Shown: positions 5,130 through 58,730 of the stretch, piece by piece | Layout: each line of letters begins with the position of its first letter | Position numbering within the stretch: the first letter of the stretch is position 1 | DNA from: Niallia sp. XMNu-256 | Lineage (GTDB): Bacteria > Bacillota > Bacilli > Bacillales > Cytobacillaceae | DNA length: 64,000 nt | Direction of reading: 5' to 3' | Assembly (NCBI RefSeq): GCF_036670015.1 | Contig: NZ_CP137636.1 | Span: 1,466,501-1,530,500 of the forward strand | Notes under the pieces: model-generated | Seen by the model: the letters and a program-made list of their open reading frames with translations, nothing else | What the model was told of the DNA's origin: nothing | Databases searched by the model: none | Program-made: the position numbers and the translations under genes

Positions 5130-5532
5130 GATTAATGATAGGTAATGTATGACGCTCTCTCAAAAATATCCTGAATTTTTTGGAAGAAATGATGATTATA
5201 AAAAATATATCATTTCAAAGGCAATCAACTTCTTCAACTCACTTGTGGAGCATAAACCTCTTTAGTTATTTCTACAATCTCCATCCATTTATATTTCTTA
5301 AATTCTTTTTACGTACGTTTGAGGCTTTAACAATTACTTATAAAATAGTCACTTGACTTTTGCTTTTGCAATCCTGATTCACACTGGCGCGGTCTAGGAG
5401 CCGTAAGGATGAAAGAGAGGTAGGGCTTTCATTGTTTTAGGTATACAAATATTTTGTCAAAATCATCATTTCTAGAAGGAATAAACAATCAAACTCCCCT
5501 CTATTTTAAGAATAGAATTATCTACTGAGAAG

Positions 5533-12335: not shown

Positions 12336-12369
12336 AATTGATGAAACATCAGAACCGTCCCGGTGTTTC
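12287..12369. repeat. GAAAC repeat, type A copy 1 (inside the glycerate kinase 3' end)
   Basis: 83 bp: left module GAAACG...GGGACGGTTCT, 29-bp centre ending AAATTGAT, right module GAAACATCAGAACCGTCCC...GTTTC. It reads as RGDGSRVAFVNLKQ followed by stop in the kinase frame. Confidence 0.88.
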
Positions 12370-12406
12370 TATTCATGGTTCTGGGATAAGCATTTTCAAT
12401 AATTTG

Positions 12407-16304: not shown

Positions 16305-16586
16305 ATGAATACATTTAGTTTATGGTCAATAGTCTTTATCGTTTTAGGATTATGTTCATTTGGATTAAGCGGGATAATGGAAGGTTATTTTGAACCTATT
16401 GTCCTTTTGGGATCTATTTTTTTATTCATAGGGGCCATATTAAGTTTTATAGCTATCTCTAAAAAGGAAAAAGGTAGAATAAAATTCATATCACTCGCAT
16501 CTTTTTTTATGATCCTATTTTTAGTTACTTGGTTTGAACCATTCCAAGTTATTCGAGTAATGATATGGCTTAAAAATATTGTTTGA
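16305..16586 (+). CDS. Small three-helix membrane protein
   Basis: 93 aa of mostly hydrophobic residues, with a basic ISKKEKGRIK turn between the second and third segments. ATG 16305 follows TAGGAGGG; the longer frame from 16185 lacks a ribosome site. Family unknown. Confidence 0.65.
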   Translation: MNTFSLWSIVFIVLGLCSFGLSGIMEGYFEPIVLLGSIFLFIGAILSFIAISKKEKGRIKFISLASFFMILFLVTWFEPFQVIRVMIWLKNIV

Positions 16587-16766
16587 CTCACAGGTGTTTG
16601 TGTTCAATAAGGACAACCCTGTTTTAACCATAAACTCCAAGTAAGCAGGTGCGATTATCGGTTGATAGAATACATTCAGAATACGTGTAAAAGAATAGTT
16701 GTTTTAAAATATAATAATCTACAGGAATATAAGAGTTGAATAATGGGGGTATAGTGGGGGGGAAAT

Positions 16767-17883: not shown

Positions 17884-17904
17884 AGGGTCCTTTCTGTTAT
17901 GGGG

Positions 17905-17985
17905 GAAACGTGGGGACGGTTCTTGCGTTTCACTCGTTCATTAAGAAATGACATTGATGAAACATCAGAACCGTCCCGCTGTTTC
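17905..17985. repeat. GAAAC repeat, type A copy 2
   Basis: Both modules present around a centre with AAGAAATGACATTGAT; 81 bp. It begins 22 bp after the DUF3953 stop. Confidence 0.88.
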
Positions 17986-18015
17986 TTTTGATATAAAAAT
18001 AAAATGTTGATATAC

Positions 18016-23058: not shown

Positions 23059-23389
23059 AAGAAACCAACTGAATTAAATAGTTATCCTTATAAAAGAAAA
23101 GAAATTAGAATCTAATCTTCAAGTTATTGGGCTAAGGATGGTTCACCATAATTTAGTCATTAAAAGTTAAAATATCGATTATTCGACAAACGGGCCACCA
23201 TATTATGGAGCAAGACCTTTAAAGAAGTAATGGATCTATATGTTACTCTATTATTAAGATTGTGGAATCTTGTACTTAAAGTAACTGGCAGTTTACTACA
23301 ATAACACAATTTAGTATTAATTTAATAGAAATAAATGTAAAATTTAAAATAATATATTTATTATTCTGAATTATAGAGGAGTGATTTGT
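23059..23389. other. Intergenic with spacer-like tail
   Basis: No gene seen. From about 23259 it holds GATTGTGGAATCTTGTACTT followed by a TAACTGGCAGTTTA motif, the right-hand part of the recurring spacer of the accessory region. Confidence 0.5.
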
Positions 23390-24385: not shown

Positions 24386-24477
24386 AAATTAGAAGTTACA
24401 TTAAGAATATGTAACAAAGGCGATCTTTCCTTAGGATTTTAATTATTGTGTAGTTAGAAGAGATTGTGATGTTTCTA

Positions 24478-24555
24478 CTTAAACAAACGGGTGCGATAGC
24501 TGAACAAGGCTGTCGCTTCTTCAACTATTGGGCAGGATTGTTGAGTAAAAAGTAG
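24478..24555. repeat. Accessory-region spacer unit
   Basis: ACTTAAACAAACGGGTGCGA, stem GCGATAGC/GCTGTCGC, then GGGCAGGATTGTTGAGTAAA. Full two-part form of the spacer that recurs between the small genes. Confidence 0.7.
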
Positions 24556-24607
24556 GTATTTTTTTGAATCGTTTTAAAGCACTTAATTAAACAAAGGAGG
24601 TAATCCA

Positions 24608-24835
24608 ATAGATAAAAAAATAAGTCTGATTTTAGGGTCGTTATTCATTTTAACTAGTGGACTAATTTTTACGATCGAAAGGTTAAGTAGATACGTTTAT
24701 TGGTCAGCACAAATAAATACTGGAGAGTATGTAACTAATCCAGAAACAATGCCATTATTCGAAAACCTTTTTATAGCGTTATTTTTCCTTATTGGAATTG
24801 TCTTTATTATTGTGTCTTTCAAGAAGGAGAGGTAA
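24608..24835 (+). CDS. Small two-helix membrane protein with apparent ATA start
   Basis: 75 aa if initiated at ATA 24608, which lies seven bases after AAAGGAGG. The frame is open from there to TAA with two hydrophobic segments (ISLILGSLFILTSGLIFTI and NLFIALFFLIGIVFIIVSF) separated by a polar stretch, ending KKER. No ATG, GTG or TTG occurs in frame before residue 45 or so. Either ATA is used or the start codon has mutated. Confidence 0.55.
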   Translation: MDKKISLILGSLFILTSGLIFTIERLSRYVYWSAQINTGEYVTNPETMPLFENLFIALFFLIGIVFIIVSFKKER

Positions 24836-24839
24836 TTAA

Positions 24840-24897
24840 ACAAACGGGTGCCATACTTCAAGAAGGAAGTATGGCTATTCTTATTGAAGTAAAGGGG
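24840..24897. repeat. Accessory-region spacer unit
   Basis: ACAAACGGGTG, perfect 9-bp stem CCATACTTC/GAAGTATGG, then CTATTCTTATTGAAGTAAAG. Nearly identical to 58731-58795, 34 kb away. Confidence 0.75.
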
Positions 24898-24966
24898 TCA
24901 ATTGAAGAAAGTATGATTGTAACTGAGCAAGCTAAACAAACCCAAATATAATTTAGGGTGATGAAA

Positions 24967-25325
24967 TTGGATAAAAGTAAACTTCTTCTATTGGTTTTAT
25001 TTAGTATACTAATTTGTGGGTTATATTATGGAACAACAGTAAATGCAAAAACGAACGATACACCTTCTTCCTTTGAGGAAAAATTTACTGAAGGCAACCA
25101 ACTCACTCCTTTAGAAATCCAGTTAATGTCTTTTATGAATGGTTTGATGGTAGGCGAACCAAAACAAGCCGTTGAATTGTGGATATTAGGCGTAAATAAT
25201 CGAAGTGGAGCTGTTAAACAATAACAACGAAATATAATCAATGGGAAGCATTTACTCCAGCCGAGACAGTTATAAATTTGAGCATTGCAGTTAACAATCA
25301 AATAAAGAGCAAAGTTTGTGAATAA
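24967..25325 (+). pseudogene. Disrupted exported protein gene
   Basis: Opens with a signal-peptide-like LLLLVLFSILICGLYYGTTV ending in ANA-K-type cleavage region, then LTPLEIQLMSFMNGLM and AVELWILGVNNRSGAV, and stops at 25224. A second frame continues ITTKYNQWEAFTPAETVINL to TAA at 25325, in the style of the end of the same protein. An internal deletion with frameshift is the simplest explanation. Family function unknown. Confidence 0.6.
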
Positions 25326-25487
25326 AAGACATTAACTAGTGGGCGCGGAATTTGAACAAATGATGGATTGTTTGAGCAATTCATTTTTTTTGTCCTTAAT
25401 TCGTTAAAAAGGTAATTTAGTTACATAACTTAAATTGGGAAATTTATGGTAGTATTAAGAGAAAATGTTAAAGTAGGTCATTGTATT

Positions 25488-26303
25488 TTGGAACTCTTCT
25501 CAGAAAAATTAATACTGATATCACTGTTTATATTTATTATTCATTCCATCGAAACACTTGCATATGCGGTCAGATTATCTGGCGCAAGAGTAAGATTGCT
25601 AGCTTCGGCTTTGTCCTTATTTAACTTAATGGTGATAGTTTCTCGAATGGCTAATATGATGCAACAACCGTTTACAGGCAGCCTTATTGATAATGCTCCA
25701 AAAGTAAATACCCTAGAATTTGTAGAAAACCAATATAGAGTCTTAATTGGCTCATCAACACTAGGAACCATAATGGGAATTCTTTTACTACCCACTTTTA
25801 TTGCACTATTTTCAAGAGCTATTATTCATTTATCTGAGGAAAGAGGCTCAATTCCATCTTTGATAAAAAAGGGATTTACTGCTGAATACATAAGGCGTGG
25901 ATTTAAGCATATTCATTTGCCGAGACTATCTTATTTAAAGGATATTAGGCTTAAAGATATTCCAATAAGGTTGTTCGTAATTAATATGCTAATAACAGCA
26001 ATATATACCATTGGAGTATTATCTGCTTTATATGCAGCCTTAATAGCTCCAGAAAGAGCATCAACATCTATTATGGCATCGGGTCTTATAAATGGAGTAG
26101 CTACGATTTTACTTACTATTTTTATTGACCCCAAAATATCCATTCTTGCGGATGATGTAATTAATCAAAGGGGAAATTACCTTAGTCTCAAAGGCGTATC
26201 CCTTATGATGGTTACTTCCCGATTATTAGGAACCATACTTGCTCAAGTGTTGTTTATTCCGGGTGCTGAATATATTGCGTGGTTTACTAAATTTATTGTT
26301 TAA
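25488..26303 (+). CDS. amj: Amj-family lipid II flippase
   Basis: 271 aa from TTG 25488, the same length as B. subtilis Amj, with about six or more hydrophobic segments. Family-like segments are HSIETLAYAVRLSGARV, SRMANMMQQPFTGSLID and FIDPKISILADD. Amj is the alternate flippase that exports lipid II for peptidoglycan synthesis when MurJ is missing or blocked. An upstream in-frame ATG at 25446 gives 14 extra residues not expected in the family. It lies among small accessory genes, an unusual place for an envelope gene. Confidence 0.82.
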   Translation: MELFSEKLILISLFIFIIHSIETLAYAVRLSGARVRLLASALSLFNLMVIVSRMANMMQQPFTGSLIDNAPKVNTLEFVENQYRVLIGSSTLGTIMGILLLPTFIALFSRAIIHLSEERGSIPSLIKKGFTAEYIRRGFKHIHLPRLSYLKDIRLKDIPIRLFVINMLITAIYTIGVLSALYAALIAPERASTSIMASGLINGVATILLTIFIDPKISILADDVINQRGNYLSLKGVSLMMVTSRLLGTILAQVLFIPGAEYIAWFTKFIV

Positions 26304-26307
26304 TAGA

Positions 26308-26350
26308 TTAACGGGCGCTTATCTAGAGAAAGGATAGCGTCTTGTTGAAT
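26308..26350. repeat. Accessory-region spacer unit
   Basis: GATTAACGGGCGCTTATC pairs through CGCTTATC with GATAGCG, followed by TCTTGTTGAAT. Directly follows amj. Confidence 0.6.
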
Positions 26351-26423
26351 TTACCAGAGTATTCATTTAATTTTTTTATTTTATAAATGTTTTCTTACTA
26401 TGCGTTAATATAAGGAGAATATA

Positions 26424-26795
26424 ATGGAACTTTTGATATTTATTATAATTCTTTTCATTTTGTTTTTTTTATTGGAAAAAATAGTGAATAAACTACTTGG
26501 AGTAAAAAAGCAAAAGATTTCAGAAACTCCAGGGAAAAAAATTGACCGATGGGGAAGAGGAATTATCGCGGTCGTCCATATTTGTATAGCTATCCCATAT
26601 TTTGTTATAAATAATAATATTTCATTGAAGTGGTATTTTATAATTTTATTAATATTTACAATTGGTTTTCAGGCTATTTTGGAGTGGAAGTATATAAAAA
26701 ATTCAAGGCAATATGCCAGTACACTAATTATTTTGATTGTAGGTCTAATCTTTATGTTTAATATTGAGTTTTTTATTCGTGTTTTTAGTTTGTGA
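26424..26795 (+). CDS. DUF4181-like membrane protein
   Basis: 123 aa, an N-terminal segment and three more hydrophobic segments. IDRWGRGIIAVVHI and FQAILEWKYIKNSRQYA match what I know of DUF4181. AAGGAGAA precedes the ATG. Function unknown. Confidence 0.7.
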   Translation: MELLIFIIILFILFFLLEKIVNKLLGVKKQKISETPGKKIDRWGRGIIAVVHICIAIPYFVINNNISLKWYFIILLIFTIGFQAILEWKYIKNSRQYASTLIILIVGLIFMFNIEFFIRVFSL

Positions 26796-26873
26796 ATTTC
26801 TATTAGACATTTAATGTGAAAAATTGTACTTAAAGTATTGGTTGGATTAGTTTAGAAGCAGGAAGTGATAAAA

Positions 26874-27239
26874 TTGAGCCTATATTTTTATAAGTATTTA
26901 GATGTGTTTAAAAGGAACTTTATGTTGGTTGTTATGGCAATAGTATTATTAGCTGTAACCTTCTTTATATGGGCTAGAGTTCCATTTTTTATAATCGGAA
27001 ATCTAGCGGCAGACTTAACTTCTAATTTTGTAATTATTTATTTATGCATTTCACTATCAGGCGGATTTCTTATTTCCTTTTATTTTGTCCCATTCAATTT
27101 AAAACTTGCTAAAAATATAGCCAGCATAAAAGATACTAGTAAAGCGAAATCTTTTATATATTTACAAACAATATTGATAATAGGATGTTCTCTTATTTTT
27201 GCTATAGTGTTGATTTTGATGAATGTTCTTCAACTATAA
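26874..27239 (+). CDS. Small membrane protein
   Basis: About 121 aa with three hydrophobic segments (LVVMAIVLLAVTFFIWA, FVIIYLCISLSGGFLISFYF, TILIIGCSLIFAIVLILM). TTG 26874 follows AGGAAG at eight bases; GTG 26865 overlaps that site. No known family. Confidence 0.62.
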   Translation: MSLYFYKYLDVFKRNFMLVVMAIVLLAVTFFIWARVPFFIIGNLAADLTSNFVIIYLCISLSGGFLISFYFVPFNLKLAKNIASIKDTSKAKSFIYLQTILIIGCSLIFAIVLILMNVLQL

Positions 27240-27395
27240 GGTGCGTTACTTTAAGAAGCATTAAGTGGTTTTTAGGACGAATGCTATATGTTAGTTATGC
27301 CATTAAAGGGCTATATTATTGAGTCATATTGAGATTGTGAAACTTTACACTTAAACTAGGTGGCAGTTTAGTGGAACAAGTAATAGGTAAAAACT

Positions 27396-27718
27396 TTATT
27401 TACTGTAGTTTTTCGGATCAATATATAATTCATCACTGTCGTTCAAGACAAAGTCAAATTTTTGACCAAAAATTTTAATTAAGCCTTTTTCGATTTTTGT
27501 ATGAGTTTCGGGGTTTACATCTTGTACATAAAAGTGATGGTACCATCGTTATCAATAGTTATTGCTTCAATACCTAATTTAAGTAATCTATCAGCTTCGT
27601 ATGAAATACCGTATCTTAATATGTCGTCTTTTCTTAAATCTTTTATTGAATTAGGAACTTCTGAACAGGCACTCAGTAAAGTTGTTGTTATCAAAATGAT
27701 AAATATTCTTTTTTTCAT
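27396..27718 (-). pseudogene. Lipoprotein gene with single-base frameshift
   Basis: The only minus-strand gene of the small-gene region. MKKRIFIILITTTLLSACS carries a lipobox (LSAC) and AGAGGTG precedes the ATG. The frame closes after 67 codons at DGTITFMYKM. Adding one T to the TTTT at about 27532-27535 restores YVQDVNPETHTKIEKGLIK and onwards to a stop at 27396, giving a protein of about 107 aa. Could be a true frameshift or a slippage switch. Confidence 0.65.
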
Positions 27719-27927
27719 TCAAAACACCTCTAAATATTAAGGTGCCAGTAATATGTAATCCTATTCAATGGGTACGCTGCATTTATAAGGAATCGTTTTT
27801 CTTTGTTAGAATAACTCGCAGGTTTGTTCAATAAAAAGTCACAACAGAATTAGGAATTTACTGTAAAATTAAATTAGAGTTAAAGAAAGTAAGTTTAAAA
27901 GTAAAGTAAAATTCTGGAGTGAAATCA

Positions 27928-28203
27928 TTGAGTTTAACAAAAAAAATCAAGCCTTATGAAAGCTTTTTATATTTTATGTTTATCACACTTATTCTAAGAC
28001 TCGTACCCCTACTAACAGATGTAATAACGGAACTTTATATACAAATAGCATTTGTATTAATAATCGTATTTATTGTGAATTTTGTCATCAAAAAGGTAGC
28101 CAACGACTTTGCTAATTTTTGCCTACGTTTTAAAATAAAAGCTTTATATCTATATATCGTTTACATAATTTTATACTTTATTATTTTTCTGTTTTTGAAC
28201 TAA
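27928..28203 (+). CDS. Small membrane protein
   Basis: 91 aa with three hydrophobic segments (FLYFMFITLILRLVPLL, IQIAFVLIIVFIVNFVI, LYLYIVYIILYFIIFLFL). TTG 27928 lies six bases after GGAGTG. No recognised domain. Confidence 0.6.
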   Translation: MSLTKKIKPYESFLYFMFITLILRLVPLLTDVITELYIQIAFVLIIVFIVNFVIKKVANDFANFCLRFKIKALYLYIVYIILYFIIFLFLN

Positions 28204-28245
28204 TAAGTGCATTACGGGAACAGCAGTAATGCTGTTTCTTCTTTA
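28204..28245. repeat. Accessory-region spacer unit
   Basis: TAAGTGCATTACGGGAACAG: perfect stem GCATTAC/GTAATGC followed by TGTTTCTTCTTT, immediately after the preceding stop codon. Confidence 0.62.
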
Positions 28246-28365
28246 AGTAACAGTGCAGATTAATTGAGAAAGACGTTGTGTGAAAATAAATATTGATATT
28301 TTCAAAGTTATATTTAAGATAAGTTGCTTTAATAAGAATATTGTATTGATGAAAGGGATTTTTCA

Positions 28366-28767
28366 ATGACAGCTCATTATTTTATCGCAACATCAAAACC
28401 TATTCCAGAATATCACACACGTGGAAATAATTATGCATTTCTAAATGGTGAAGCGTATAAGGAAAATTTGCCATTTACCCTCCCTTATGTTTATGAACTT
28501 GGAGGTGAAGATGTTGAGTTTATTACATTCTTGGACTCATTTATGGAAATAGGGGACGTTGTAGAGCTATATATATATGAGGAAGGACGACTGGGATATC
28601 GCTTATCACATAATTATCCAAAAGAGTCCAGAACAATTAATCTTTTTAAAAAAACTTACAAAGATGAATACGGTGAATATCAATTAGACTCAAAGAAATG
28701 GAAAGAAGAGCTTACCAGACGAACTATTGCATCAAAACGAAGCGTTACTACATTCGTTAAATATTAG
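28366..28767 (+). CDS. Soluble protein of unknown function
   Basis: 133 aa, no signal or membrane segment, with many aromatic residues (HYFIATSKPIPEYHTRGNN; VELYIYEEGRLGYRLSHNYP). AAAGGGA precedes the ATG. I do not recognise the family. Confidence 0.68.
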   Translation: MTAHYFIATSKPIPEYHTRGNNYAFLNGEAYKENLPFTLPYVYELGGEDVEFITFLDSFMEIGDVVELYIYEEGRLGYRLSHNYPKESRTINLFKKTYKDEYGEYQLDSKKWKEELTRRTIASKRSVTTFVKY

Positions 28768-28867
28768 TGACCTGCTGTTCTCAAGGTGTTATTGAACTAA
28801 CTGGTGCGTTAGTGAAAATAGAAGAAATTATTGATTTTAAGATTGAGGTCATATTTTAGTTATTCCA

Positions 28868-28908
28868 TAAAGGGCGCAATTCTACTACAAGGAATTGTGT
28901 CTTTTAGC
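28868..28908. repeat. Accessory-region spacer unit
   Basis: AAAGGGCGCAATTC pairs with GAATTGTGTC, followed by TTTT. Confidence 0.6.
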
Positions 28909-28970
28909 TATCAACCTGAACAATGTGTTTGGGCTTATTTGACCAAAAAAGCGACATTAGGGGTGAAAAA

Positions 28971-29723
28971 ATGACTGACAACGAAAATATCTTATTAAAA
29001 AAGCTTGAAAATGAAAATATGGAAACTCTAATTAAAAGGGGTAGAGGTGCAGAGTTAGAGCAATATTGTTCTTGGATAGGTAAATCCATACATGGAACAG
29101 CAAGAGAAAAAGCGTGTAGCCTTTTGAGTTGGTATGACTCGAAGACATACAGGGAAAGACTTAAAAAATATGAAAATCTAAAACTAAAAATAGATATTAA
29201 AAAAGGACCTCATGGTAAAACTGTTAGGGGAAGCATTTCACAGTATTTAGGGTTAAAGAAAATCAGACCTGTGATCTTATCTAAGTTTAACTATAAATGT
29301 TCTATATGCGGTTTTGAACCAGAAGAAAGCGAAAGAAAAAAACTTCACGTTCATGAGATAGAAGAATATGACTTTGATACGAGTATATGTGAATTGAAAG
29401 GGTTAGTATTAATCTGCTCATCCTGCCATAGTTTCCATCATTTATATAGGACGTATAGTATTGCTACTGAAGCACAGATGGATGAATTAATTTCTCATTT
29501 TACAAGGGTGAACGGAATTGAAAGTGAAGATTATCACGAGTATTTTAGATTATTACGATACTCTTGGAGAAATGAGAGCATGAAAAGTTTAGATGAAATG
29601 ATAAATAGAAGTGTTATCTCTGATCGTGAAGAGAAAGTAACGTTTAGGATCAGTTTTGACATGCCGTATAAGGAAGAGGTCATAAAACTATTAAAGGAAA
29701 AAGATTTATATGTTAGAAACTAA
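28971..29723 (+). CDS. HNH endonuclease domain protein
   Basis: About 250 aa. The C-terminal half holds a Zn-ribbon/HNH core: YKCSICGFEP, KLHVHEIEEYD, LVLICSSCHSFHHL. The N-terminal part is helical and basic. ATG 28971 follows AGGGGTG; the longer frame is rejected. Stand-alone HNH proteins can be homing or defence nucleases; the target here is unknown. Confidence 0.82.
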   Translation: MTDNENILLKKLENENMETLIKRGRGAELEQYCSWIGKSIHGTAREKACSLLSWYDSKTYRERLKKYENLKLKIDIKKGPHGKTVRGSISQYLGLKKIRPVILSKFNYKCSICGFEPEESERKKLHVHEIEEYDFDTSICELKGLVLICSSCHSFHHLYRTYSIATEAQMDELISHFTRVNGIESEDYHEYFRLLRYSWRNESMKSLDEMINRSVISDREEKVTFRISFDMPYKEEVIKLLKEKDLYVRN

Positions 29724-29764
29724 ATAGATTCCCAATTCGCTTTAAATTACATGTTAGTTTATTC

Positions 29765-29810
29765 AGGGATAGGGCGCGATTTTATAATAAGATTTAGCGC
29801 TCGTTTTCAT
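29765..29810. repeat. Accessory-region spacer unit
   Basis: GGATAGGGCGCGATTTTATA and TTTAGCGCTCGTTTTC: GCGC-based stem plus T-rich tail. Confidence 0.5.
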
Positions 29811-29955
29811 TAAAGATTGTAAAACAATGTATTTAAAATAGCGATCGGAGTTTATTAATAATTTATGAGGTGTTTTGTGAGTAGGTTTTACGATATTTTT
29901 ATTTCTTTATCTATTAATCCTTTCGAAACTATAAAAATTGAAAATAGGTGATTGA

Positions 29956-30256
29956 TTGAAAAGGAAACTTCGAAATACATATTTTTGGTTAGTGTTCTCC
30001 TTCTATTACTTTCACTTTCAATAGCATGCAATTTTCTTGATATTTCTGTATTTGACTCACCGTACCTTGCTTTTTATGGGCTTAGCATTTTGGGTTCAAT
30101 TATTGGTTTTGTAGGTTGGAAACTTCAGAAAGCGGAAATAAAAGGTTTACTGACTAAAATTGTAGGGAAAATTGGATTTTACGTAATTTAGCATTGATTA
30201 TATTATTTTTTCCACCCATTTATCATATTTGGGGAACATTGATTTTTGATCTATAA
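29956..30256 (+). pseudogene. Frameshifted copy of the 35844 membrane protein gene
   Basis: Same start context (AGGTGATTGA then TTG) and same end (IWGTLIF.*) as the intact copy. One base is lost near 29998 (TTCTCC against TTCATCC) and one near 30182 (TACGTAA against CACGGTAA). Three paralogous copies exist in the window (17278, 29956, 35844); only 35844 is intact. Confidence 0.78.
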
Positions 30257-30267
30257 CAACTTTATTG

Positions 30268-30340
30268 CGGGTGCGATTGCGGGACAAGAAGCAGTCGCAC
30301 TTTTTATTAACGGTGCAGTTTTGTTCAATAGAAGTATTTG
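30268..30340. repeat. Accessory-region spacer unit, clearest example
   Basis: 10-bp stem GTGCGATTGC/GCAGTCGCAC (one G-T pair) followed by TTTTT, then ACGGTGCAGTTTTGTTCAAT. Confidence 0.75.
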
Positions 30341-30480
30341 AAAAATATAGTGTATAGAAGAGAAGAAGAAAGGAAAAAGCCAATTTGTGCATTCTATTTT
30401 CTATTTTTTTGAATGCAACCTGAAACTTTCTTTCACTTAAATCCGTATAATTTTATCATTATAACAAGGAGGGCTATATT

Positions 30481-30891
30481 ATGTATGATGTTTGGGGTAA
30501 TGGGGATTGGTTATTCGCATTCGGCCCAATATTTATAGGAATCATTTTTGTTATCATTTTTATAGGAATAATAGTCAGTTTATTCAGTGGACTTAGACAA
30601 TGGAAAAAGAATGAAGATTCTCCTCGTTTATCTGTTCCAGCCATCGTAAAAATTAAACGAACAAATGTTACGAGACATAGTCATCATCAAGATAACAATT
30701 CCCACTCGCACAGCTCCTCTACGACTTACTTTATTACATTTGAATTCGAAAGTGGCGACCGTTCAGAATTTCATGTTTCAGGCAAGGCATACGGTATGCT
30801 TGCAGAAGGAGATATCGGCACTTTAACTTTTCAAGGAACAAGATATATTGATTTTACTAGAACAAAACTCCCTCAAATTCATCATGAATGA
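30481..30891 (+). CDS. DUF2500 domain membrane protein
   Basis: 136 aa. One N-terminal transmembrane segment (FIGIIFVIIFIGIIVSLF), a His/Ser-rich linker (TRHSHHQDNNSHSHSSS), then a beta-rich domain TYFITFEFESGDRSEFHVSG and GTLTFQGTRYIDF typical of DUF2500. AAGGAGGG precedes the ATG. Function unknown. Confidence 0.8.
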   Translation: MYDVWGNGDWLFAFGPIFIGIIFVIIFIGIIVSLFSGLRQWKKNEDSPRLSVPAIVKIKRTNVTRHSHHQDNNSHSHSSSTTYFITFEFESGDRSEFHVSGKAYGMLAEGDIGTLTFQGTRYIDFTRTKLPQIHHE

Positions 30892-31020
30892 AATACCTAA
30901 TGAACGGTTAGATCGATATTGTTCCATTAATGTACAGTAAAACCGTTATTCAGCAAAGGGGCAGGATATTTCATTTAAGAACGTTAAAATCGTTAAAGGA
31001 TTAGGGGAGGTTCGAATCGG

Positions 31021-31179
31021 TTGAGATGGCTTTTTGCTATTCCATTTGTTATTCTGGGATCTTTTTTATTTACATTAACCATTGATGATATTGGAATAAT
31101 AGGTCAAATAATCAAGATACTTATAGGAATCGGTTGTTTTTTTATTGCGGTTGTTTTTGTGAGAGGAAAGAGAGCATAA
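31021..31179 (+). CDS. Tiny two-helix membrane protein
   Basis: 52 aa from TTG 31021, ten bases after GGGGAGG. Two hydrophobic segments (WLFAIPFVILGSFLFTLTI; IIKILIGIGCFFIAVVFV) and basic tail RGKRA. No family known. Confidence 0.5.
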   Translation: MRWLFAIPFVILGSFLFTLTIDDIGIIGQIIKILIGIGCFFIAVVFVRGKRA

Positions 31180-31357
31180 AACAATGCATCATCTTCAACT
31201 AACGGTAGAATATTTGAACTAGTATGTAACTTTAAAACATGTGAAACGATCCAGGTATTAAGTAAAAGTACCTAGATAAATAATGTTATAGACGGGGAAT
31301 GAATTGGAATAGCTATTATGAGATAAAAAATAAATTTATATTGTACTAATGGACAGA

Positions 31358-31385
31358 TTAGTGAAACAGGGAATTATGGTATAAT
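31358..31385 (+). promoter_or_regulatory. Promoter of the 31422 gene
   Basis: Extended -10 TG-G-TATAAT at 31377-31385 with TTAGTG 16 bases upstream. Shows that this unit carries its own promoter. Confidence 0.6.
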
Positions 31386-31421
31386 ATATTTACGAAACAT
31401 TCTAAAAAGGAGGAGTGGTTT

Positions 31422-31670
31422 TTGAAAAAGTATTTTGTATTTATAATAAGTCTTATATTGCTTTATACAGCATATCAAATATTATCGGGCATGATTTTAA
31501 CTGCCTTCTATACTCCAGATTTTTCTTTAATAGAGGGTAATCTTAATCAGAGTGTAGACTTTGGTGAGGTTACTTCAATACCATTATTTGTAACATTGTT
31601 TATTTCGATATTTGCTTATTTTCTATCTCAAAAAGTATTTAAAATTGAAAAAGTTGATTTAATTGCATAA
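31422..31670 (+). CDS. Small two-helix membrane protein
   Basis: 82 aa, TTG start after AGGAGGAG. Two hydrophobic segments enclose YTPDFSLIEGNLNQSVDFGEV. A decayed copy with the same downstream terminator is at 34673, so gene and terminator were duplicated as one unit. Confidence 0.65.
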   Translation: MKKYFVFIISLILLYTAYQILSGMILTAFYTPDFSLIEGNLNQSVDFGEVTSIPLFVTLFISIFAYFLSQKVFKIEKVDLIA

Positions 31671-31704
31671 AAAGGCTGTCTAATTACTCGTGGCAGCCTT
31701 TTTA
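31669..31704 (+). terminator. Terminator after the 31422 gene
   Basis: AAAAAGGCTG/CAGCCTTTTT stem; loop CTAATTACTCGTGG. Same element at 34884. Confidence 0.88.
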
Positions 31705-31714
31705 AATTTATACG

Positions 31715-31922
31715 AAGAAGAAGAAAAAGGCTAATTTAGGTATAGGGGGAACTAGTAATCTAGTTCTTGAACCAAATCAAGAAGGAGAATATACTTTTGA
31801 TTTAAAAAAATCCTGAAATTAGAATTGCACCTTCCTCCGACCAATTAGATAAGCTAAAAAATAGTATGTTTTATTTTCTGTTACCATTAGAGGGCGGAAC
31901 AGGAAAGGCGGTTATATCTTGA
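31715..31922 (+). pseudogene. C-terminal remnant of a protein gene
   Basis: Coding-like segment GGTSNLVLEPNQEGEYTFDL, a frameshift near 31811, then PEIRIAPSSDQLDKLKNSMF to a stop that overlaps the next start codon. No start codon or N-terminus. Family unknown. Confidence 0.45.
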
Positions 31923-32212
31923 AACAACATAAGGAGTTTTATCCAATCATTTTAACCTTAGCTTTGTTCTTAGTGGCACTTTTTGTATTCTTTTTCTTTA
32001 ATGGCCGGATATTTCCAAATATGAACTTATGGATACCCATTATTTTATATTTATTAATTGACATTGGTTTTATTGTTTCGTTAATTTTAGGAATCAGATC
32101 TAAAAATATAAGTGTAAAGATATTCAGTATTCTATCTAATTTTACATTTATGATACCGTTATCAATCTGGTTATTTCTATTGTTATTGGCAAATGGAATT
32201 TCAGAACCATAG
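31919..32212 (+). CDS. Small three-helix membrane protein ending GISEP
   Basis: 97 aa from TTG 31919 after AAAGGCGG. Three hydrophobic segments and C-terminus LLLLANGISEP shared with the gene at 15873. Family otherwise unknown. Confidence 0.66.
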   Translation: MKQHKEFYPIILTLALFLVALFVFFFFNGRIFPNMNLWIPIILYLLIDIGFIVSLILGIRSKNISVKIFSILSNFTFMIPLSIWLFLLLLANGISEP

Positions 32213-32237
32213 AAAATAGATCTTCTTTTTCTTATTT

Positions 32238-32312
32238 GACTAACGAGGTGCGATTGCTCAATAGGAGCAGTCGCTTTTTCACTAACAGGCAGGTTTATTC
32301 AATAAGAAGTCA
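32238..32312. repeat. Accessory-region spacer unit
   Basis: GACTAACGAGGTGCGATTGC; stem GCGATTGCTC/GAGCAGTCGC followed by TTTTT, then GGCAGGTTTATTCAATAAGA. Full two-part form. Confidence 0.75.
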
Positions 32313-32387
32313 TAACATGAATGTATAACTACTGTAAAATATACTTAGATGTAATAAAGAGTCTGGATGAACGAGGGAGAATGTTAA

Positions 32388-32681
32388 ATGGATAGTAGTT
32401 TTTTTATAATACTTATGGGCCTTTTTATTGTTGTTGCAAATGTTATTGCGTTTATATCTTATAGAAAAAAGAAGAATCTATACTTTGCTGCTTTTACAAT
32501 ATTATTATCAGCCGTTTTATTTGGGGCAATCGGTGGTGGATTAGCATTATTTATTATTCGTGATGCTTTTGCAATATTTTATGGAATGCAAGTAGCACAA
32601 TATTTATTATTCAATAGTATCATCGTTTTTATTATTGCAATTTTAGCAACTGTAATAAAAAGATATCGTTCGGAAAAATAG
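32388..32681 (+). CDS. Small membrane protein
   Basis: 97 aa, three hydrophobic segments with a basic SYRKKKN turn after the first. GAGGGAG-like site lies upstream of the ATG. Unknown family. Confidence 0.64.
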   Translation: MDSSFFIILMGLFIVVANVIAFISYRKKKNLYFAAFTILLSAVLFGAIGGGLALFIIRDAFAIFYGMQVAQYLLFNSIIVFIIAILATVIKRYRSEK

Positions 32682-32740
32682 AAATATAAAACAAACAGGG
32701 CCAAATTGCTAGTTAGAATGGGGATTGTGAGGTGTTGTGT

Positions 32741-33065
32741 TTGTTAAAAACAAATGCATGGTTGTTTTCAGTCATAAGTATCATATTTGTATTAATTTAT
32801 TTTATCTTATTTTTATCAACTGGCTTAGCTAAGATAGTGACGTATAATCCTTGGTTCGCATTTTTTTTATGTGTTCTCCTTTCTGTTGGGGGATTTATTT
32901 TATCGGTTTCATCAATTATTTTATCAATTATCGGAAAAAGAACACATATTGTTCCTTACTTTACAGTATTTTTCTCATTTATATTAATTCTTTTTTACTA
33001 TTTTTGTATTTCTACTACCCGAAGCAGGGATTCCACCTGTTATACCATTATTTTTTGATAGATAA
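32741..33065 (+). pseudogene. Small membrane protein gene with 3' frameshift
   Basis: TTG 32741 lies six bases after GAGGTG. Three or so hydrophobic segments follow. In the annotated frame the end is STTRSRDSTCYTIIF, but the adjacent frame reads LLPEAGIPPVIPLFFDR and stops at 33065, a more natural membrane-protein ending. A one-base change in the T-rich run near 32990-33006 would join them. Confidence 0.5.
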
Positions 33066-33590
33066 GTAAAAAATATTTGTTCAGCTATTGGCGCAAAAAA
33101 ATCTAACAACTTTGTGCTGCTATTTAGCAGTCCATAGTTGTTGCTCTCTAATCAATGAAAAGGCAGGATTTGTGTTAACGGGTGCTTTTCTTCCATAAAA
33201 GGACTGTCTAAAAACCTCTGGCAGTTTCTTTATATTTATACAACGATTAGTACTTCCATTCTTTCTTCCACTAAAGGGTAAGATGTGCGAATAGATGGTA
33301 TTATGTTTATATTAGGAAGATATTGTAAAGCGATTTACTTAGATTAGCGTGCAGTTTAATTATATAAAAATATAATAATCCCATTATCGAAATTTATGTA
33401 AAATGTTCCGTATTATATTTAAAGGATAATAAATTCGACAGTTGCAATAGATATCTATTTTCATGCGGGTCAATAATTTTTTTATAATCTTCAACAATCG
33501 TGCGCAATAATGGCATAAAAGTCTGCACCTTTTTTACATATAAGGGCCAGGCCAGTTAAGGTAATAACTTCTTGTAAAGGGAGGATCTGT
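33066..33590. other. Intergenic with spacer remnants
   Basis: No gene found. It holds GGCGCAAAAAAATC...TTTGTGCTG near 33084-33121 and a spacer unit at 33164-33240 (TTAACGGGTGC, ACTGTCTAAAAACCTCTGGC, T-rich tail). Confidence 0.5.
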
Positions 33591-33767
33591 ATGAAGTATG
33601 TAGTGGGTTTGTATATGGTTATGGCAGTAATGGTATTTGTTAATGGGGCAAGTGTATTTATTTTTAAAGACGAGTTTTCTGCCATTGCAAGCTGGCTTAC
33701 AGTTATGTTATTTCTTTTGGGGACTATATTTTTCGTTAATGCGAGATATTATCTATCCAAGAAATAG
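33591..33767 (+). CDS. Tiny two-helix membrane protein
   Basis: 58 aa, ATG 33591 after AAAGGGAGG. Two hydrophobic segments joined by FKDEFSAIASW. No known family; good ribosome site and clean frame support it. Confidence 0.6.
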   Translation: MKYVVGLYMVMAVMVFVNGASVFIFKDEFSAIASWLTVMLFLLGTIFFVNARYYLSKK

Positions 33768-33873
33768 CTTTTGGGGTTCTTGAGGAAAGAGGCCCTACTC
33801 CAGAATCGGGCAGTATTTTATATTCCGGTCGGAAGCTAAAAAAATTATATGAATGAAGAGGGGAATCGGGACT

Positions 33874-34410
33874 ATGTTTTTATCGTATCTATTTGTATTT
33901 ATTTTGGCAGCGATTCCGCTATTTGAACTAGTTGCGGTGATTCCATTAGCTGTCATCGGAGGACTGTCTCCGGTACTGACGGCGGTACTTGCCTTTTTAG
34001 GAAATGCACTAACTGTGGTTCTGCTAATTGTTTATGTGGATCACGTAAAGAAATGGATGAGAAAGCGAAAACAAAAGCGTATGCAAGGTGTTTTACAAGA
34101 TGAGGGTATGGCGGAAGAAGCTGATGTGGAAGGAACGGAGGATTCGAAAAAAAGCAAACGCGCAAGGGCGCTATTTAATAAGTATGGCCTGCCTGGCTTA
34201 GCGATTATCGGTCCTTTTTTCGTAGGATCCCATATCTCCGCGTTTATGGGGATGAGCTTCGGTTCGAAAAGGAGGATGGTAACTATCTGGATGATGACAA
34301 GTTTAGTTCTATGGACAGTAATTATATCTGTCGCTTCAAGCTATGGAGTCACCTTTTTTATTCCTCATGTAGAAGAAGATGGTTTCTTAATTCGCCTGTT
34401 CAGCAACTAA
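33874..34410 (+). CDS. Small multidrug export-like protein (PF06695-type)
   Basis: About 178 aa. Hydrophobic N-terminal half with IPLFELVAVIPLAVIGGLSP, a charged central loop (RKRKQKRMQG...), then FNKYGLPGLAIIGPFFVGSH and ISAFMGMSFGSKRR, the pattern of the putative small multi-drug export family. Actual transport activity of the family is poorly shown. ATG 33874 preferred; 33853 has no ribosome site. Confidence 0.78.
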   Translation: MFLSYLFVFILAAIPLFELVAVIPLAVIGGLSPVLTAVLAFLGNALTVVLLIVYVDHVKKWMRKRKQKRMQGVLQDEGMAEEADVEGTEDSKKSKRARALFNKYGLPGLAIIGPFFVGSHISAFMGMSFGSKRRMVTIWMMTSLVLWTVIISVASSYGVTFFIPHVEEDGFLIRLFSN

Positions 34411-34672
34411 TTTTCCATTAGAGACTTAACCTTTAAGATAATATCCTGATACTAATTATTCAGAAATCGTGCGCTTTAATTGAGCGATAAACAAGCCTTA
34501 TTTCTTCGCATTACATGGAGAAATGAGGCTTGTTATATTTATGCAGACATTACTACGTAAAATAGCATTTTTTTACGTATAGATTCCCTTTCTTGTTAAG
34601 CTAAATGGCAGATTAGCTCAACAAGCAATTAACGATATGTAGTAAGCTATGTTAAAGGGGAAATGGAGAAAT

Positions 34673-34859
34673 GTGAAAAAGAATTATACTGTTTTGTTGA
34701 ACTGCCCTCTATACTCCAGACTTTTCTGTAATAGAGGGTAATCTGAGTCAGAGTGTAGCTTTTGGTGAGGTTAATTCAATACCATTACTTGTAACATTGT
34801 TTATTGCGACATCTGCTTATTTTCTCTCTCAAAAAGTATTTGAAATTAAAAAAAGTTGA
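34673..34859 (+). pseudogene. Decayed duplicate of the 31422 membrane gene
   Basis: GTGAAAAAGAATTATACTG start, then an internal deletion that joins the first few codons to YTPDFSVIEGNLSQSVAFGE in another frame, followed by FLSQKVFEIKK. Downstream terminator is shared with the 31422 unit. Confidence 0.72.
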
Positions 34860-34883
34860 ATTGATTAATACTGATTGAATTGC

Positions 34884-34918
34884 ATAAAAAGGCTGTCTAA
34901 TTACTTGTGGCAGCCTTT
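34884..34918 (+). terminator. Terminator after the decayed 34673 gene
   Basis: AAAAAGGCTG/CAGCCTTTTT; differs from the copy at 31669 by one loop base. Confidence 0.88.
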
Positions 34919-35100
34919 TTAAATTTATACACCAAAAACTAGTTAAAAGCGTATTTTCACGTTATGTCTCCGTTTGATCCTTCAACTAAAGGGGCAGGTG
35001 GTGTAAACGTGTTGAAATGAGACCTTTACAAATTAGATTATAATGATTTTGATAGGGTGGATATGATGCTAAATGGAGATGGAAAACAAAGAGGTTTACT

Positions 35101-35625
35101 ATGATAATCGCATTTCTATTGCTTATATTATTTGTTGTCGTCATAGTAACTAAAAAATGGAAGGCTTTTATTATTTTTGTTGTTTGTCTTACGGTAGTTA
35201 TTTTATCCGTATTCAAGATTCCGGTGTTATTTCAAAAGAGCATTGAATTATTAGGTGAGGGTTTAGATCAAGTAAAAGTCGGCTACTTGATTGATAAGGA
35301 CGATACATCTCCGATAAAAGATAATGTAATTTACCTTGCTTTGAAGCATAATCCTGGAATTTTAGTGTATGTGGAAGAAGATATAATTAAGGAATTAACC
35401 TTAGTTACCGAACCTATAAATACATCGATATCTACAATGAAAGGAATTAATATGAAAAGTACATTCGCCAGGTCGTTCAGAATCTTATAGAAATCTAAGA
35501 TTTGTAGAGATATATGGCGTTGGAATAGAGTACAGGTATAAAAAACTAGAATCATCATTCAATTCTTTTTTGATGATGATGAACCGGATAGTCAGGTACG
35601 CAATATAGAGATTATAAAGAAATAA
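35101..35625 (+). pseudogene. Multiply frameshifted membrane-anchored protein gene
   Basis: The first 129 codons encode one or two hydrophobic segments (IIAFLLLILFVVVIV, VCLTVVILSVFKI) and a soluble part. The frame then breaks near 35452. Continuations EKYIRQVVQNLIEI, RFVEIYGVGIEYRYKKLESS and DDDEPDSQVRNIEIIKK lie in order in shifted frames to 35625. Family unknown. Confidence 0.62.
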
Positions 35626-35843
35626 ATTTTATTAGTGGCAATACTTTTTTGACGTTAACAAATGTAAATAAGAATTTAATAGCAATTTAGTCGCAGCGTA
35701 TCTCTCAAAGAGGGGACACGCTTTTTATTGCTTAAGGTTCACATTAAGCAATAAAAGGTCACAATATTAAATAATCAATAAGTAGATAAAGTGTGCTATA
35801 GTGATAGAAACAAATAAGTTAAAAATTGGAAATAGGTGATTGA

Positions 35844-36146
35844 TTGAAAAGGATACTTCGAAATACATATTGTTGGTTAATATTCATCCTTCTATTCCTT
35901 TCACTTTCGATTGCTTGCAATTTTCTTGATGTTTTTGTATTTAACTCAACTTACATTGCTTTTTATGGGCTTAGCATTTTAGGATCGATTATTGGTCTTG
36001 CAGGTAGGAAACTTCAGATATTGGAAAAAGAAGTTTCGGTGACTAATATAGTAGGGAACATTGGGTTTCACGGTAATTTAGCCATGGTCATTTTGTTTTT
36101 CCCTCCCATTTATCAAATTTGGGGAACATTGATTTTTGGTCCATAA
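35844..36146 (+). CDS. Small membrane protein, intact member of a three-copy family
   Basis: 100 aa from TTG 35844 after AGGTGAT. Three hydrophobic segments; MVILFFPPIYQIWGTLIFGP at the end. Two decayed paralogues are at 17278 and 29956. A DUF3953 gene follows here and at the 17278 copy, so the pair travels together. Confidence 0.7.
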   Translation: MKRILRNTYCWLIFILLFLSLSIACNFLDVFVFNSTYIAFYGLSILGSIIGLAGRKLQILEKEVSVTNIVGNIGFHGNLAMVILFFPPIYQIWGTLIFGP

Positions 36147-36225
36147 CAATATGGTTGCAGAATAAGAAGTGGTCGCACTTAGTAATAATGAGCAGGTTGG
36201 TTTGGGTAGAAAGAAGGTGACAATC

Positions 36226-36459
36226 TTGTTGAAGACTCTTCGTTATGTATTATCAATAATAACCTTTTTATTTGCTTCTAATGGATTAATTACTGGAGAT
36301 TTTAAATTCGGAAGTATGATGATTTTTTTCTTAGGTTTGACTATGTTGGTGATGGGGTTAGAAGAATTACGCAATAACCGAAAAGCAATAGGATGGTTTT
36401 TAATTATTGTTTTTTTATTTTCTGTATTTGTATAATTAGAAGGATTCATTTTAAGTTAA
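36226..36459 (+). pseudogene. DUF3953-type gene, copy 2, with premature stop
   Basis: Same protein as 17650 (LLKTLRYVLSIITFLFASNG; GLTMLVMGLEELR) after GAAGGTGA. A TAA at 36433 interrupts it; LEGFILS and the true stop follow in frame to 36459. Only seven or so C-terminal residues are lost, so it may still function. Confidence 0.65.
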
Positions 36460-36495
36460 TGGGTACCTACTATTTTTGGTGTAATATTCCAAAAG

Positions 36496-36578
36496 GAAAC
36501 GTGGGGCCGGTTCTCGCGTTTCATTTGTAAATCTAAAGAAATGACATTGATGAAACATCAGAACCGTCCCGGTGTTTC
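36496..36578. repeat. GAAAC repeat, type A copy 3
   Basis: 83 bp, both modules, centre AATCTAAAGAAATGACATTG. The left module carries GGGGCCGG instead of GGGGACGG. Confidence 0.9.
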
Positions 36579-36627
36579 TACCAACTTTTTTTCCCTCTTT
36601 TAATTTTAAAATACCAAAATAAATGTG

Positions 36628-37415: not shown

Positions 37416-37503
37416 GCGCGTATTCATTTCAGTTTTTCAGATATTGAAGGGTCGCTCTTAATCTTCTACAAAAGGGTGCGAGATTTGTGCATATGATCTG
37501 AGG

Positions 37504-37586
37504 GAAACGTGGGGACGGTTCTCGCGTTTCATTTGTTAATCTAAAGAAATGACATTGATGAACTATCAGAACCGTCCCGGTGTTTC
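37504..37586. repeat. GAAAC repeat, type A copy 4
   Basis: 83 bp; same centre as copy 3. The right module begins GAACTATCAGAACC, so one stem base is changed. Confidence 0.9.
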
Positions 37587-37963
37587 GCTCCTAAAGAAAA
37601 ATTGCGAAAGTGGTTATCAAATATAGGGAGTGAATAAATCTTGACTACATAAAAATACATCTTTCTAACCAACAATTGGATATTTTTCTCAAAGAAGTCT
37701 ACTAATTTTAGGACAAATTAGTTACAGGATATAACATCCAGTACAAGTATGAATAGAATGATCTCAATTTTAGGCAAATAGAAAACTGAAAATCATCAAT
37801 AATATTTATAAATTGGAAGCCCATCTTTAAACCACTTAAATGGATGGCTTAAGGTTGAGAATAAATGAAATCTATTCTAAAATAAGCGATACTGTTGTTT
37901 AACAGTAATCACAGGTTCGGTTCGTTTTAAACCTATCGAAATTCTAAATAAAGGAGAGGTTTT
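37587..37963. other. Intergenic stretch, no gene seen
   Basis: AT-rich sequence before the nitroreductase gene. No ORF with a ribosome site found. Confidence 0.5.
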
Positions 37964-38944: not shown

Positions 38945-39226
38945 ATGAGCTTGATAGCGCAACAACCTTATATAAAAACAGAAAGAAAAGTGACAAGTAT
39001 TGAACAGTTCGAAATCGACCATGATCGAATCATTTACTTGTATAATGATAAGGTCGTTACACAAAATAGAGAGTTTCCAATTAAGGATGTGATGGATTTT
39101 TCTTATCGGGAAATTGCAAATCAAGGTGGCATTCTCTATTTACATACGCTACAAGGTGTATATACGTATATCGTAAAATCTTCACCAGAAGCTTTTATCA
39201 AAGCATATAGAGCATATTTCAAGTAG
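38945..39226 (+). CDS. Small PH-like/unknown soluble protein
   Basis: 93 aa beta-rich protein (FEIDHDRIIYLYNDKVVTQN; GGILYLHTLQGVYTYIVKSS) with a final helix ending AYFK. TAGGAGG lies seven bases before the ATG. Its stop codon TAG overlaps the first base of a GAAAC repeat. Confidence 0.75.
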   Translation: MSLIAQQPYIKTERKVTSIEQFEIDHDRIIYLYNDKVVTQNREFPIKDVMDFSYREIANQGGILYLHTLQGVYTYIVKSSPEAFIKAYRAYFK

Positions 39227-39318
39227 AAACGTGGGGAAACGTGGGGACGGTTCTCGCGTTTCATTAGTTAATTTAAAGAAATGACATCGATGAAACATCA
39301 GAACCGTCCCGGTGTTTC
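39226..39318. repeat. GAAAC repeat, type A copy 5 with duplicated first ten bases
   Basis: GAAACGTGGG occurs twice (39226 and 39236) before GGACGGTTCTCGCGTTTC. Centre and right module as in copies 3 and 4. First G is the last base of the preceding TAG stop. Confidence 0.9.
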
Positions 39319-39458
39319 ATTCACCCTAATTCGCCTCGAATTGGGGTATTTTCTTGTGCGAATTGATAGATTTCACGGTCAATTGCATCTTTTTACGAAT
39401 TCGGCAAAAGGTCTCTTTGCTGAGAAGTTTGAAGTCACTACTGATCATATATTCATTC

Positions 39459-51765: not shown

Positions 51766-51792
51766 CGTGTCTACCTTTCTGAAGCAAGCTCA

Positions 51793-51860
51793 TTCTCGCG
51801 TTTTAGTTGTTAGGTAAAAGGAATAACATGGATGAAACATCAGAACCGTCCCCGCGTTTC
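51793..51860. repeat. GAAAC repeat, type A copy 6 (left end truncated)
   Basis: Begins in TTCTCGCGTTTTAG, then GAATAACATGGATGAAACAT and CAGAACCGTCCCCGCGTTTC. The right end forms part of the thermonuclease gene's stop codon. Confidence 0.82.
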
Positions 51861-57090: not shown

Positions 57091-57132
57091 ATGAGACAAT
57101 ATTTCTTCATTTCCAATAGAGTTGATGCAGTT

Positions 57133-57171
57133 CATCTAAAGCTTGCTTATAAGCTTTAGATGGACGTTTTT
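57133..57171 (+). terminator. Terminator after the L,D-transpeptidase gene
   Basis: Perfect 12-bp stem CATCTAAAGCTT/AAGCTTTAGATG, then GACGTTTTT. Confidence 0.9.
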
Positions 57172-57934: not shown

Positions 57935-58078
57935 AAGGCAAAAGCCAATTAAGAATCGATTAGTCTTTCAGACCAAAAACTTTATTTGATATTCAATTAA
58001 CTGGCAGTTTGATTTAAGGGTGTTTCGTTTAAAGTATTAGAAATTAATAAAGAATTGCATAAATGGTGAGGAGATAAA

Positions 58079-58723: not shown

Positions 58724-58730
58724 AATTCAA

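Follow-up and report, generated by a model that had tools for sequence, protein, structure and literature searches.

How short genes of no shared pathway come to be lined up with one recurring palindromic spacer is the question raised by the stretch of Niallia sp. XMNu-256 analysed here (the window, 64,000 nt; genome G000, contig C1), in which such genes lie almost all on the plus strand between about 24.4 and 36.5 kb and again around 58 to 60 kb. The original prediction took this for a gene-collecting region of a kind other than an integron, and that view is supported by conserved sites, a linked recombinase and the many unit borders that fall at the sites. Judged from sequence, the region is very likely a gene-cassette array run by site-specific recombination with a dedicated tyrosine recombinase.

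The recurring spacer with conserved flanks was confirmed, and both flank strings occurred far above chance in the window. ACTTAAACTAACGGGTGCG had 2 matches at ≤3 mismatches, where 0.00 were expected, and TTGAACTAACTGGCAGTTT had 3 matches, where 0.03 were expected. A looser box-A consensus gave 27 matches on the plus strand and 5 on the minus strand of the window, compared with 5 and 2 for the reversed control and with 0 to 10 (plus) and 3 to 4 (minus) for block shuffles (three per strand). The pattern GGCAGKTTTGTTBAAYARRARG was too strict and gave 0 matches. The flanks are conserved, unlike those of the plain terminators that would have spoken against a gene-collecting region. A covariance model (R1) was built from five seed spacers of equal length, chosen because a multiple alignment of whole spacers left the hairpin arms out of register, and was later rebuilt from 25 copies. 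Seven of the nine spacer copies listed originally were recovered by the covariance model at E ≤ 0.013, all on the plus strand (24479, 24836, 28195, 30261, 32236, 58726 and 59970); those at 32236 and 59970 had been among the seeds of the model. For the two remaining copies, at 26308 and 28868, there was no match at E ≤ 5, and box A and a hairpin are visible there by eye. The stems had been said to vary in sequence yet keep pairing, and two-sided changes in the 25 copies of the window's genome bear this out. In an alignment fitted to the covariance model, which favours the pairing score, pairing is kept in 94.4% of cells, changes on both sides occur in 9 of 9 pairs and the covariation score is 0.70, against 0.27 in shuffles and ≤0.17 when slid. 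The best 28 model matches in the window and 15 further stretches of the same genome were all on the plus strand. With the rebuilt model (150 of 2650 candidates scored) at least 25 matches were obtained in this genome at E ≤ 0.01, and 23 of those 25, all on the plus strand, fall within 1.46-1.82 Mb of the 4.2 Mb contig.

A full spacer consists of two palindromic sites, A and then B, with a terminator hairpin between them. In the arrays of other genomes each site has a left arm TTNAACTAAC, a short core and a right arm GTTAGTTNAA. The consensus of site A is AACTAAC-GGGTGC-GTTAGTT and that of site B is AACTAAC-GGGGCAG-GTTAGTT; in these consensus sequences the left arm of A is complementary to the right arm of B, and the right arm of A to the left arm of B. 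The core is 6 nt long in site A (GGGTGC and variants) and 6 or 7 nt long in site B (GGGCAG or GGGGCAG). No consistent core had been recognized at the outset, but the core becomes consistent once the sites are split into these two types. Along the arrays the order is B-gene-A-terminator-B-gene-A. The terminator stem in the window's genome takes its 5' side from the right arm of A, whereas in other genomes the terminator is a separate hairpin; the hairpins are followed by T-rich tracts.

Strict sites numbered 452 in 81 sampled stretches (2 of them counted twice, stretch L316 being a duplicate of the plasmid stretch L304) and 0 in the reversed sequences; the stretches were mostly picked for model or recombinase matches, so that site densities differ from genome averages. 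With a core list and a score threshold, 680 sites against 12 in reversed sequences were found at the lower setting and 464 against 0 at the strict one, the core lists and the arm consensus having been fixed after viewing the arrays, so that none of the site counts is blind. A loose site definition gave 1855 sites and 990 in the control, and was dropped for counts. The window holds 12 strict palindromic sites, or 18 at a looser cut-off, all on the plus strand. A clear spacer is missing after some of its genes, and the statement that every gene is followed by one was overstated. Site direction is nearly uniform within a stretch, with both strands used only in L239, L288, L290 and L303. An A was followed by the next B within 120 bp in 94 of 175 pairs (median distance 57), and distances this short were seen in 8 of 169 A-A, 2 of 180 B-A and 1 of 85 B-B pairs. 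Of 126 B-to-A intervals of 200-1500 bp, 119 had their longest open reading frame (ORF) in the direction of the array, and the median ORF length was 147 aa. The motif GGAAATTAATGTTAAAAT recurs directly 5' of B sites in L236, L237, L240 and other stretches of genome G486 and is perhaps a promoter for the next gene; overall, the enrichment of such a promoter-like motif before B sites was weak (with 14 of 18 letters matching, 15 of 290 and a control count of 1).

The original prediction saw no integrase, which is true inside the window. A recombinase gene is present 88.6 kb past the window end and within other Bacillales arrays. It encodes a tyrosine recombinase of about 280 aa (279-284) and lies inside the arrays on the opposite strand. 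PF00589 matches in six genomes included three full-length frames of about 280 aa, antisense within the arrays of G000, G296 and G486; the G000 and G296 proteins both share 78% identity with the G486 protein, and the three hosts belong to three families. Around 23 recombinase loci (stretches of ≤20 kb) box A was found 94 times on the strand opposite to the recombinase and 5 times on the same strand, compared with one match on each in the reversed control. A site B lies ≤260 bp 5' of the recombinase in 19 of 29 loci (opposite-strand control 0) and a site A ≤160 bp 3' of it in 12 of 29 (control 1), and the array continues on both sides of the gene. The 29 array recombinases group as a single clade (support 100/100) in a 45-protein tree, distinct from the other recombinases of these genomes. 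Hosts of different families adjoin within this clade, for example G000 and G461, which points to horizontal transfer.

Of 397 Bacillales genomes, 82 carried the recombinase at E ≤ 1e-60; they represent 43 of 136 genera, and several of the copies are broken. The recombinase is present in 33 of the 69 genomes with at least five box-A matches and in 49 of the 328 others (Fisher p 1.4e-8, tallied by eye). A phylum-wide search found it in 7 of 398 genomes; three relatives outside Bacilli are 41-43% identical and have no sites within the 2-4 kb of sequence surrounding them. Among 72,556 plasmid records 8 contain the recombinase, including plasmids of Sporosarcina, Cytobacillus, Niallia and Peribacillus, and some of these copies are fragmentary. 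Two Peribacillus frigoritolerans plasmids, compared by gene tables only, are alike around broken recombinase remnants.

Homologous units in different arrays end at the sites far more often than random positions do. The first breakpoint set was obtained from pairwise homology among 80 stretches (≥80% identity, 200-6000 bp), with ends near N or near stretch ends excluded and the duplicate L316 removed. In G486 and G505 many repeats of ≥94% identity border on tracts of N and resemble duplications made by the assembly. In this set 90 of 266 unique breakpoints lay ≤25 bp from a site, compared with a random mean of 12.8 and a maximum of 23 in 500 trials. Both ends were at sites in 28 of 194 usable pairs, several of which are the recombinase module itself. 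Breakpoints fall at A and B sites alike, and units of the types A-A, B-A, A-B and B-B are all present. A second set, from one genus, gave 25 of 69 breakpoints at sites (null mean 4.8, maximum 12) and 7 of 46 pairs with both ends at sites, including a 728 bp unit that is 100% identical at two places in G462; it partly overlaps the first, with six G481 stretches in common and 4 of the 46 pairs within them. Both sets take in introns, repetitive extragenic palindromic (REP) elements and other repeats. The clearest single case is a gene present in five arrays, two of G296 and one each of G299, G003 and a Cytobacillus solani plasmid. On the 5' side the shared gene is bounded by the B core and on the 3' side by the left arm of A, while the neighbouring sequences differ; these borders were taken from the site list in some copies and seen only by eye in others. 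In G497 two copies of a unit share the end ...AACTAACGGG; one of them then reads on into a B core and the other into an A core, a pattern that would put the exchange at the core start or slightly within it.

In the mechanism proposed, the recombinase would bind the inverted arms and exchange strands close to where the 6-7 nt core begins, so that modules extend from core to core, possibly by way of circular intermediates. A gene module would open with a B core (GGGGCAG) and close with a left arm, and a terminator module would open with an A core (GGGTGC), hold the terminator hairpin and likewise close with a left arm. The recombinase itself would travel as an A-integrase-B module, and the B site 5' of it would be the likely primary insertion site.

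Several observations weigh against this mechanism. Sites A and B have cores of unequal length, a difference that simple strand exchange would disfavour. The site-rich genomes G481, G505 and G478 gave no recombinase match at E ≤ 1e-60, and at 4 of the 23 recombinase loci the stretch had no match to the box-A pattern. Borders had been expected inside the spacers, and in the array-to-array comparison many unit borders are at sites, but over half are elsewhere (176 of 266 breakpoints in the first set and 44 of 69 in the second). The null of random positions takes no account of the fact that breakpoints, like sites, are mostly intergenic. Neither recombination products nor circles nor empty-site pairs were seen. 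For a clean insertion of a single unit into collinear arrays there were 7 candidates, and the 6 listed were one intron-length difference.

The rival that survives best, though with only an outside chance of being right, holds that the spacers are a dispersed intergenic repeat made up of terminators and their conserved flanks, that homologous recombination shuffles the units and that the recombinase is a passenger. Covarying hairpins followed by T-rich tracts are what it expects, and the intergenic bias left uncorrected in the null for the 266 breakpoints is in its favour. Spacers that are alike within a genome could also act as homology; in the best 50 covariance-model matches from arrays of G481, G296, G486 and G505 the hairpins are almost identical within G481 and likewise within G296. 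However, the gene shared by five arrays has its borders at sites of about 30 bp despite differing spacers, palindromic sites with two arms serve no evident purpose in termination, and the recombinase gene runs against the array, in many cases between an A and a B site.

Somewhat less probable still is a far-diverged true integron, in which A and B fold together as one single-stranded attC and the recombinase is an IntI without the usual signature. The complementarity between the arms of A and B would suit this, as would an antisense integrase with an adjoining site, cassettes of one gene each and the insertion of group II introns into the sites. The protein family scores point elsewhere. Three array recombinases scored 98-100 bits with the integron-integrase model TIGR02249, for which the cut-off is 265; the best match in the family genomes (L127, 215.7 bits) is also below the cut-off, so that a positive control is lacking. 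Only the cut-off counts in this search, because matches at E ≤ 0.001 were obtained in 151 of 151 genomes and in 14 of 14 controls. None of the 151 family genomes had an integron integrase above it, a weak negative since matches were scored in separate stretches. The length of 279-284 aa and the alignment of TIGR02249 to the array recombinases in two stretches suggest that the IntI-specific extra domain near the C-terminus is absent. The XerA score was 204-217 bits (cut-off 220), and by family score the recombinase is Xer-like and not an integron integrase. Breakpoints at both A and B, and the presence of both B-to-A and A-to-A units, also speak against an integron. Hardly credible is the third rival, in which the sites are dif-like targets of the host XerC/XerD as in the pdif modules of Acinetobacter: inverted arms around a 6 nt centre do resemble dif (11-6-11 in a passage of PMC12907356) and further tyrosine recombinases of Xer length occur in array genomes, but the array recombinases are a separate clade that sits in the arrays, and the sites are almost uniformly oriented per stretch and not alternately inverted.

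A cassette array with a dedicated recombinase thus being preferred, it can be placed among known systems. Integrons cut attC at one end only. Like integrons, especially sedentary chromosomal ones, the Bacillales arrays have an antisense tyrosine recombinase with a site beside its start, long one-direction runs of mostly one-gene units and spacer hairpins that are similar within a genome, and arrays also occur in genomes without a recombinase match. They differ in that the Bacillales recombinase is Xer-like and far under the integron-integrase cut-off, the sites are two kinds of short double-arm palindrome with borders at both kinds, the terminators seem to be modules of their own, and the array flanks the recombinase on both sides. 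As in the pdif modules, genes lie between sites of two arms and a 6 nt centre, in rows of modules that share sites; a passage of PMC12907356 describes the pdif modules as moved by XerCD and flanked by C/D and D/C sites, whereas the Bacillales sites are one-directional, have two core types (A 6 nt, B 6 or 7) and are linked to a dedicated recombinase. The array is best classed as a variant of the gene-cassette kind and as a member of neither the integron nor the dif-module family. The repeats bcr1-bcr18 are likewise dispersed in Bacillales; they are reported, in part of PMC6542083, as specific to the Bacillus cereus group, and they are set apart here by description and not by sequence. No description of the array system was found in the open-access papers searched, subscription papers and preprints being outside the scope of this search.

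Integrons are the classic route for gathering single genes. Firmicutes are named among the phyla with integrons in a passage of PMC8618304, and in the part of PMC9024848 dealing with them the IntegronFinder 2.0 survey has a single complete integron, in Limnochorda pilosa, and a few integrase-less arrays. The Bacillales arrays are probably a gene-capture system of origin separate from integrons, in which genes and terminators are two independent kinds of module tagged by their opening core and which has spread over dozens of genera and plasmids; this broader reading is held less firmly than that of a recombinase-run array. If it is true, a system with its recombinase in 82 genomes opens a large unread store of small genes and provides a second example from which the requirements of gene cassettes could be learned, together with a new recombinase that uses short sites. 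In an integron-like manner, but with another enzyme and other sites, soil relatives of Bacillus appear to gather genes singly and rearrange them.

The box-A pattern (≤1 mismatch) was found in 287 of 397 Bacillales genomes, in some certainly by chance. Its copy number was high in G351 (84), G497 (78), G436 (75) and G330 (62), with 0 to 1 in reversed controls, and long box-A arrays are present in G481, G296, G486 and G505; in 400 kb of these four genomes 163 of 165 covariance-model matches at E ≤ 0.1 follow the direction of their own array. Plasmid CP053689.1 (L305), filed under Arthrobacter citreus (Actinomycetota), bears an array of the Bacillales type; the organism name looks wrong because the recombinase coordinates equal those in contig 2 of the Bacillales genome G494. 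A unit of a G481 array (L226:3092-4270, flipped) is 80-92% identical to genes in site-free stretches of G518, G462 and G500 (L374, L376 and L377), which belong to the same genus; the site-free genes are a possible chromosomal source of a cassette.

The window's own genome has two copies of the recombinase gene. The full-length copy (C1:1619113-1619949) lies between an A and a B site and has Gly at the position of the Arg in the HxxR box, which we take to be the motif of this recombinase family. This Arg is catalytic in the family and is kept in 27 of 29 array recombinases, and its replacement makes the full-length protein probably inactive. The second copy, near 1.769 Mb, is broken. As both copies look damaged, the window array is likely a store no longer served by a recombinase of its own, and the system in this genome is probably idle.

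Gene order gave no sign of conservation among relatives, the window array being non-syntenic in 4 other genomes of the same genus. When 15 kb around the array were compared with these genomes, single-gene pieces were found at scattered places; further matches were to a widespread dehydrogenase gene beside the array and to a dispersed repeat. Most scattered pieces stop at gene ends or inside genes and not at recognisable sites, which indicates loss of synteny and not clean exchange. The best named relative of one window gene (86%) is in Psychrobacillus sp. OK032.

Group II introns with the same start begin two bases after the core of a site in six stretches, four times in A and twice in B (L305:21299-23275 region, L315:17982, L317:1295 flipped, L323:14203 flipped, L304:14173 and L287:4697 flipped). 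The class was Rfam RF02005 in the two tested, and a search of 80 stretches on both strands gave no further occurrence of the intron start sequence. The intron positions are independent evidence and suggest that A and B share a recognisable structure; a group of group II introns targets integron attC sites in a similar way. In a megablast search with one plasmid array the matches in other plasmids were mainly to its group II intron.

All features of the window array are on the plus strand. Upstream of the named region a decayed site A lies at 16582-16607 (site score 11) and a site B at 23276-23301 (12). The region opens with site A and a terminator hairpin at 24479-24526 (core GGGTGC at 24489; R1 42.9 bits, E 2e-8; palindrome score 13), a site B at 24520-24545 (core GGGCAG at 24530; 11.5) and a second site A with hairpin at 24836-24885 (R1 41.0 bits), which has close copies elsewhere in the genome. 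A decayed site A (25331-25356, score 10.5) precedes two unit genes with Pfam matches, Amj (alternate to MurJ; 25446-26303, PF10997), of which a single-gene homologue occurs elsewhere in G005, and DUF4181 (26424-26795). The single unit at 26827-27244 (gene 26865-27239) is present at 87% identity in G296, from another family. The 3' border of the unit coincides with the site A at 27229-27254 (AGGTGC, score 13) in the window copy and with a weaker A-like site in the G296 copy; at the 5' border only the G296 copy has a site A. Sites B follow at 27351-27376 (TGGCAG, 12) and, by a looser core rule, at 27806-27831 (TCGCAG, 13). The site A and hairpin at 28195-28242 (AAGTGC; R1 23.4 bits) adjoin a site B at 28242-28268 (AGTGCAG, 12.5, looser rule), and the gene at 28366-28767, without Pfam match, is followed by the highest-scoring site of the window, an A at 28792-28817 (TGGTGC, 15).

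The gene content named originally held for ASCH (60038-60526) and GNAT (60598-61146), both by Pfam, while the genes called SUKH and HNH had no Pfam match above the gathering score; the HNH-called unit gene is at 28923-29723 and has a relative split in two pieces in G030. The unit gene at 29952-30191 has relatives at 17.3 and 35.8 kb, and its homology to the former stops at the 3' end 10 bp from a site B (looser rule). A site A remnant with hairpin at 30261-30308 (R1 20.0 bits) and a site B at 30302-30328 (GGTGCAG, 12, looser rule) precede a DUF2500 unit gene (30481-30891, Pfam) and a further site B at 31341-31366 (GGACAG, 12, looser rule). The model seed at 32236-32284, a site A with hairpin (R1 52.1 bits), and the site B at 32277-32302 (AGGCAG, 13) are followed by a unit gene at 32388-32681, whose 88% relative stands alone at another place in G005. 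More B sites are at 34596-34621 (TGGCAG, 12), 34981-35007 (GGGGCAG, 11), 57992-58017 (TGGCAG, 12) and 58514-58540 (GTGGCAG, 12.5). A site A remnant with hairpin lies at 58726-58775 (R1 30.0 bits), and the other seed located above, again A with hairpin, at 59970-60018 (AGGTGC; R1 53.1 bits, score 12.5).

At the gathering score Rfam matched no family in the window besides the BsrC small RNA (5359-5445, minus strand, 98.9 bits). Dispersed palindromes of the form GAAACG..GGGACGGTTCTCGCGTTTC / AGAACCGTCCC make up a second repeat family in the window, at 12277-12388, 17895-17992, 36486-36597, 37494-37605, 39226-39337 and 51777-51879; they presumably resemble REP elements moved by RAYT transposases. 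A 252 bp sequence, its length divisible by three, is repeated in tandem at 56391-57146; the three copies lie largely inside the ORF at 55843-57090.

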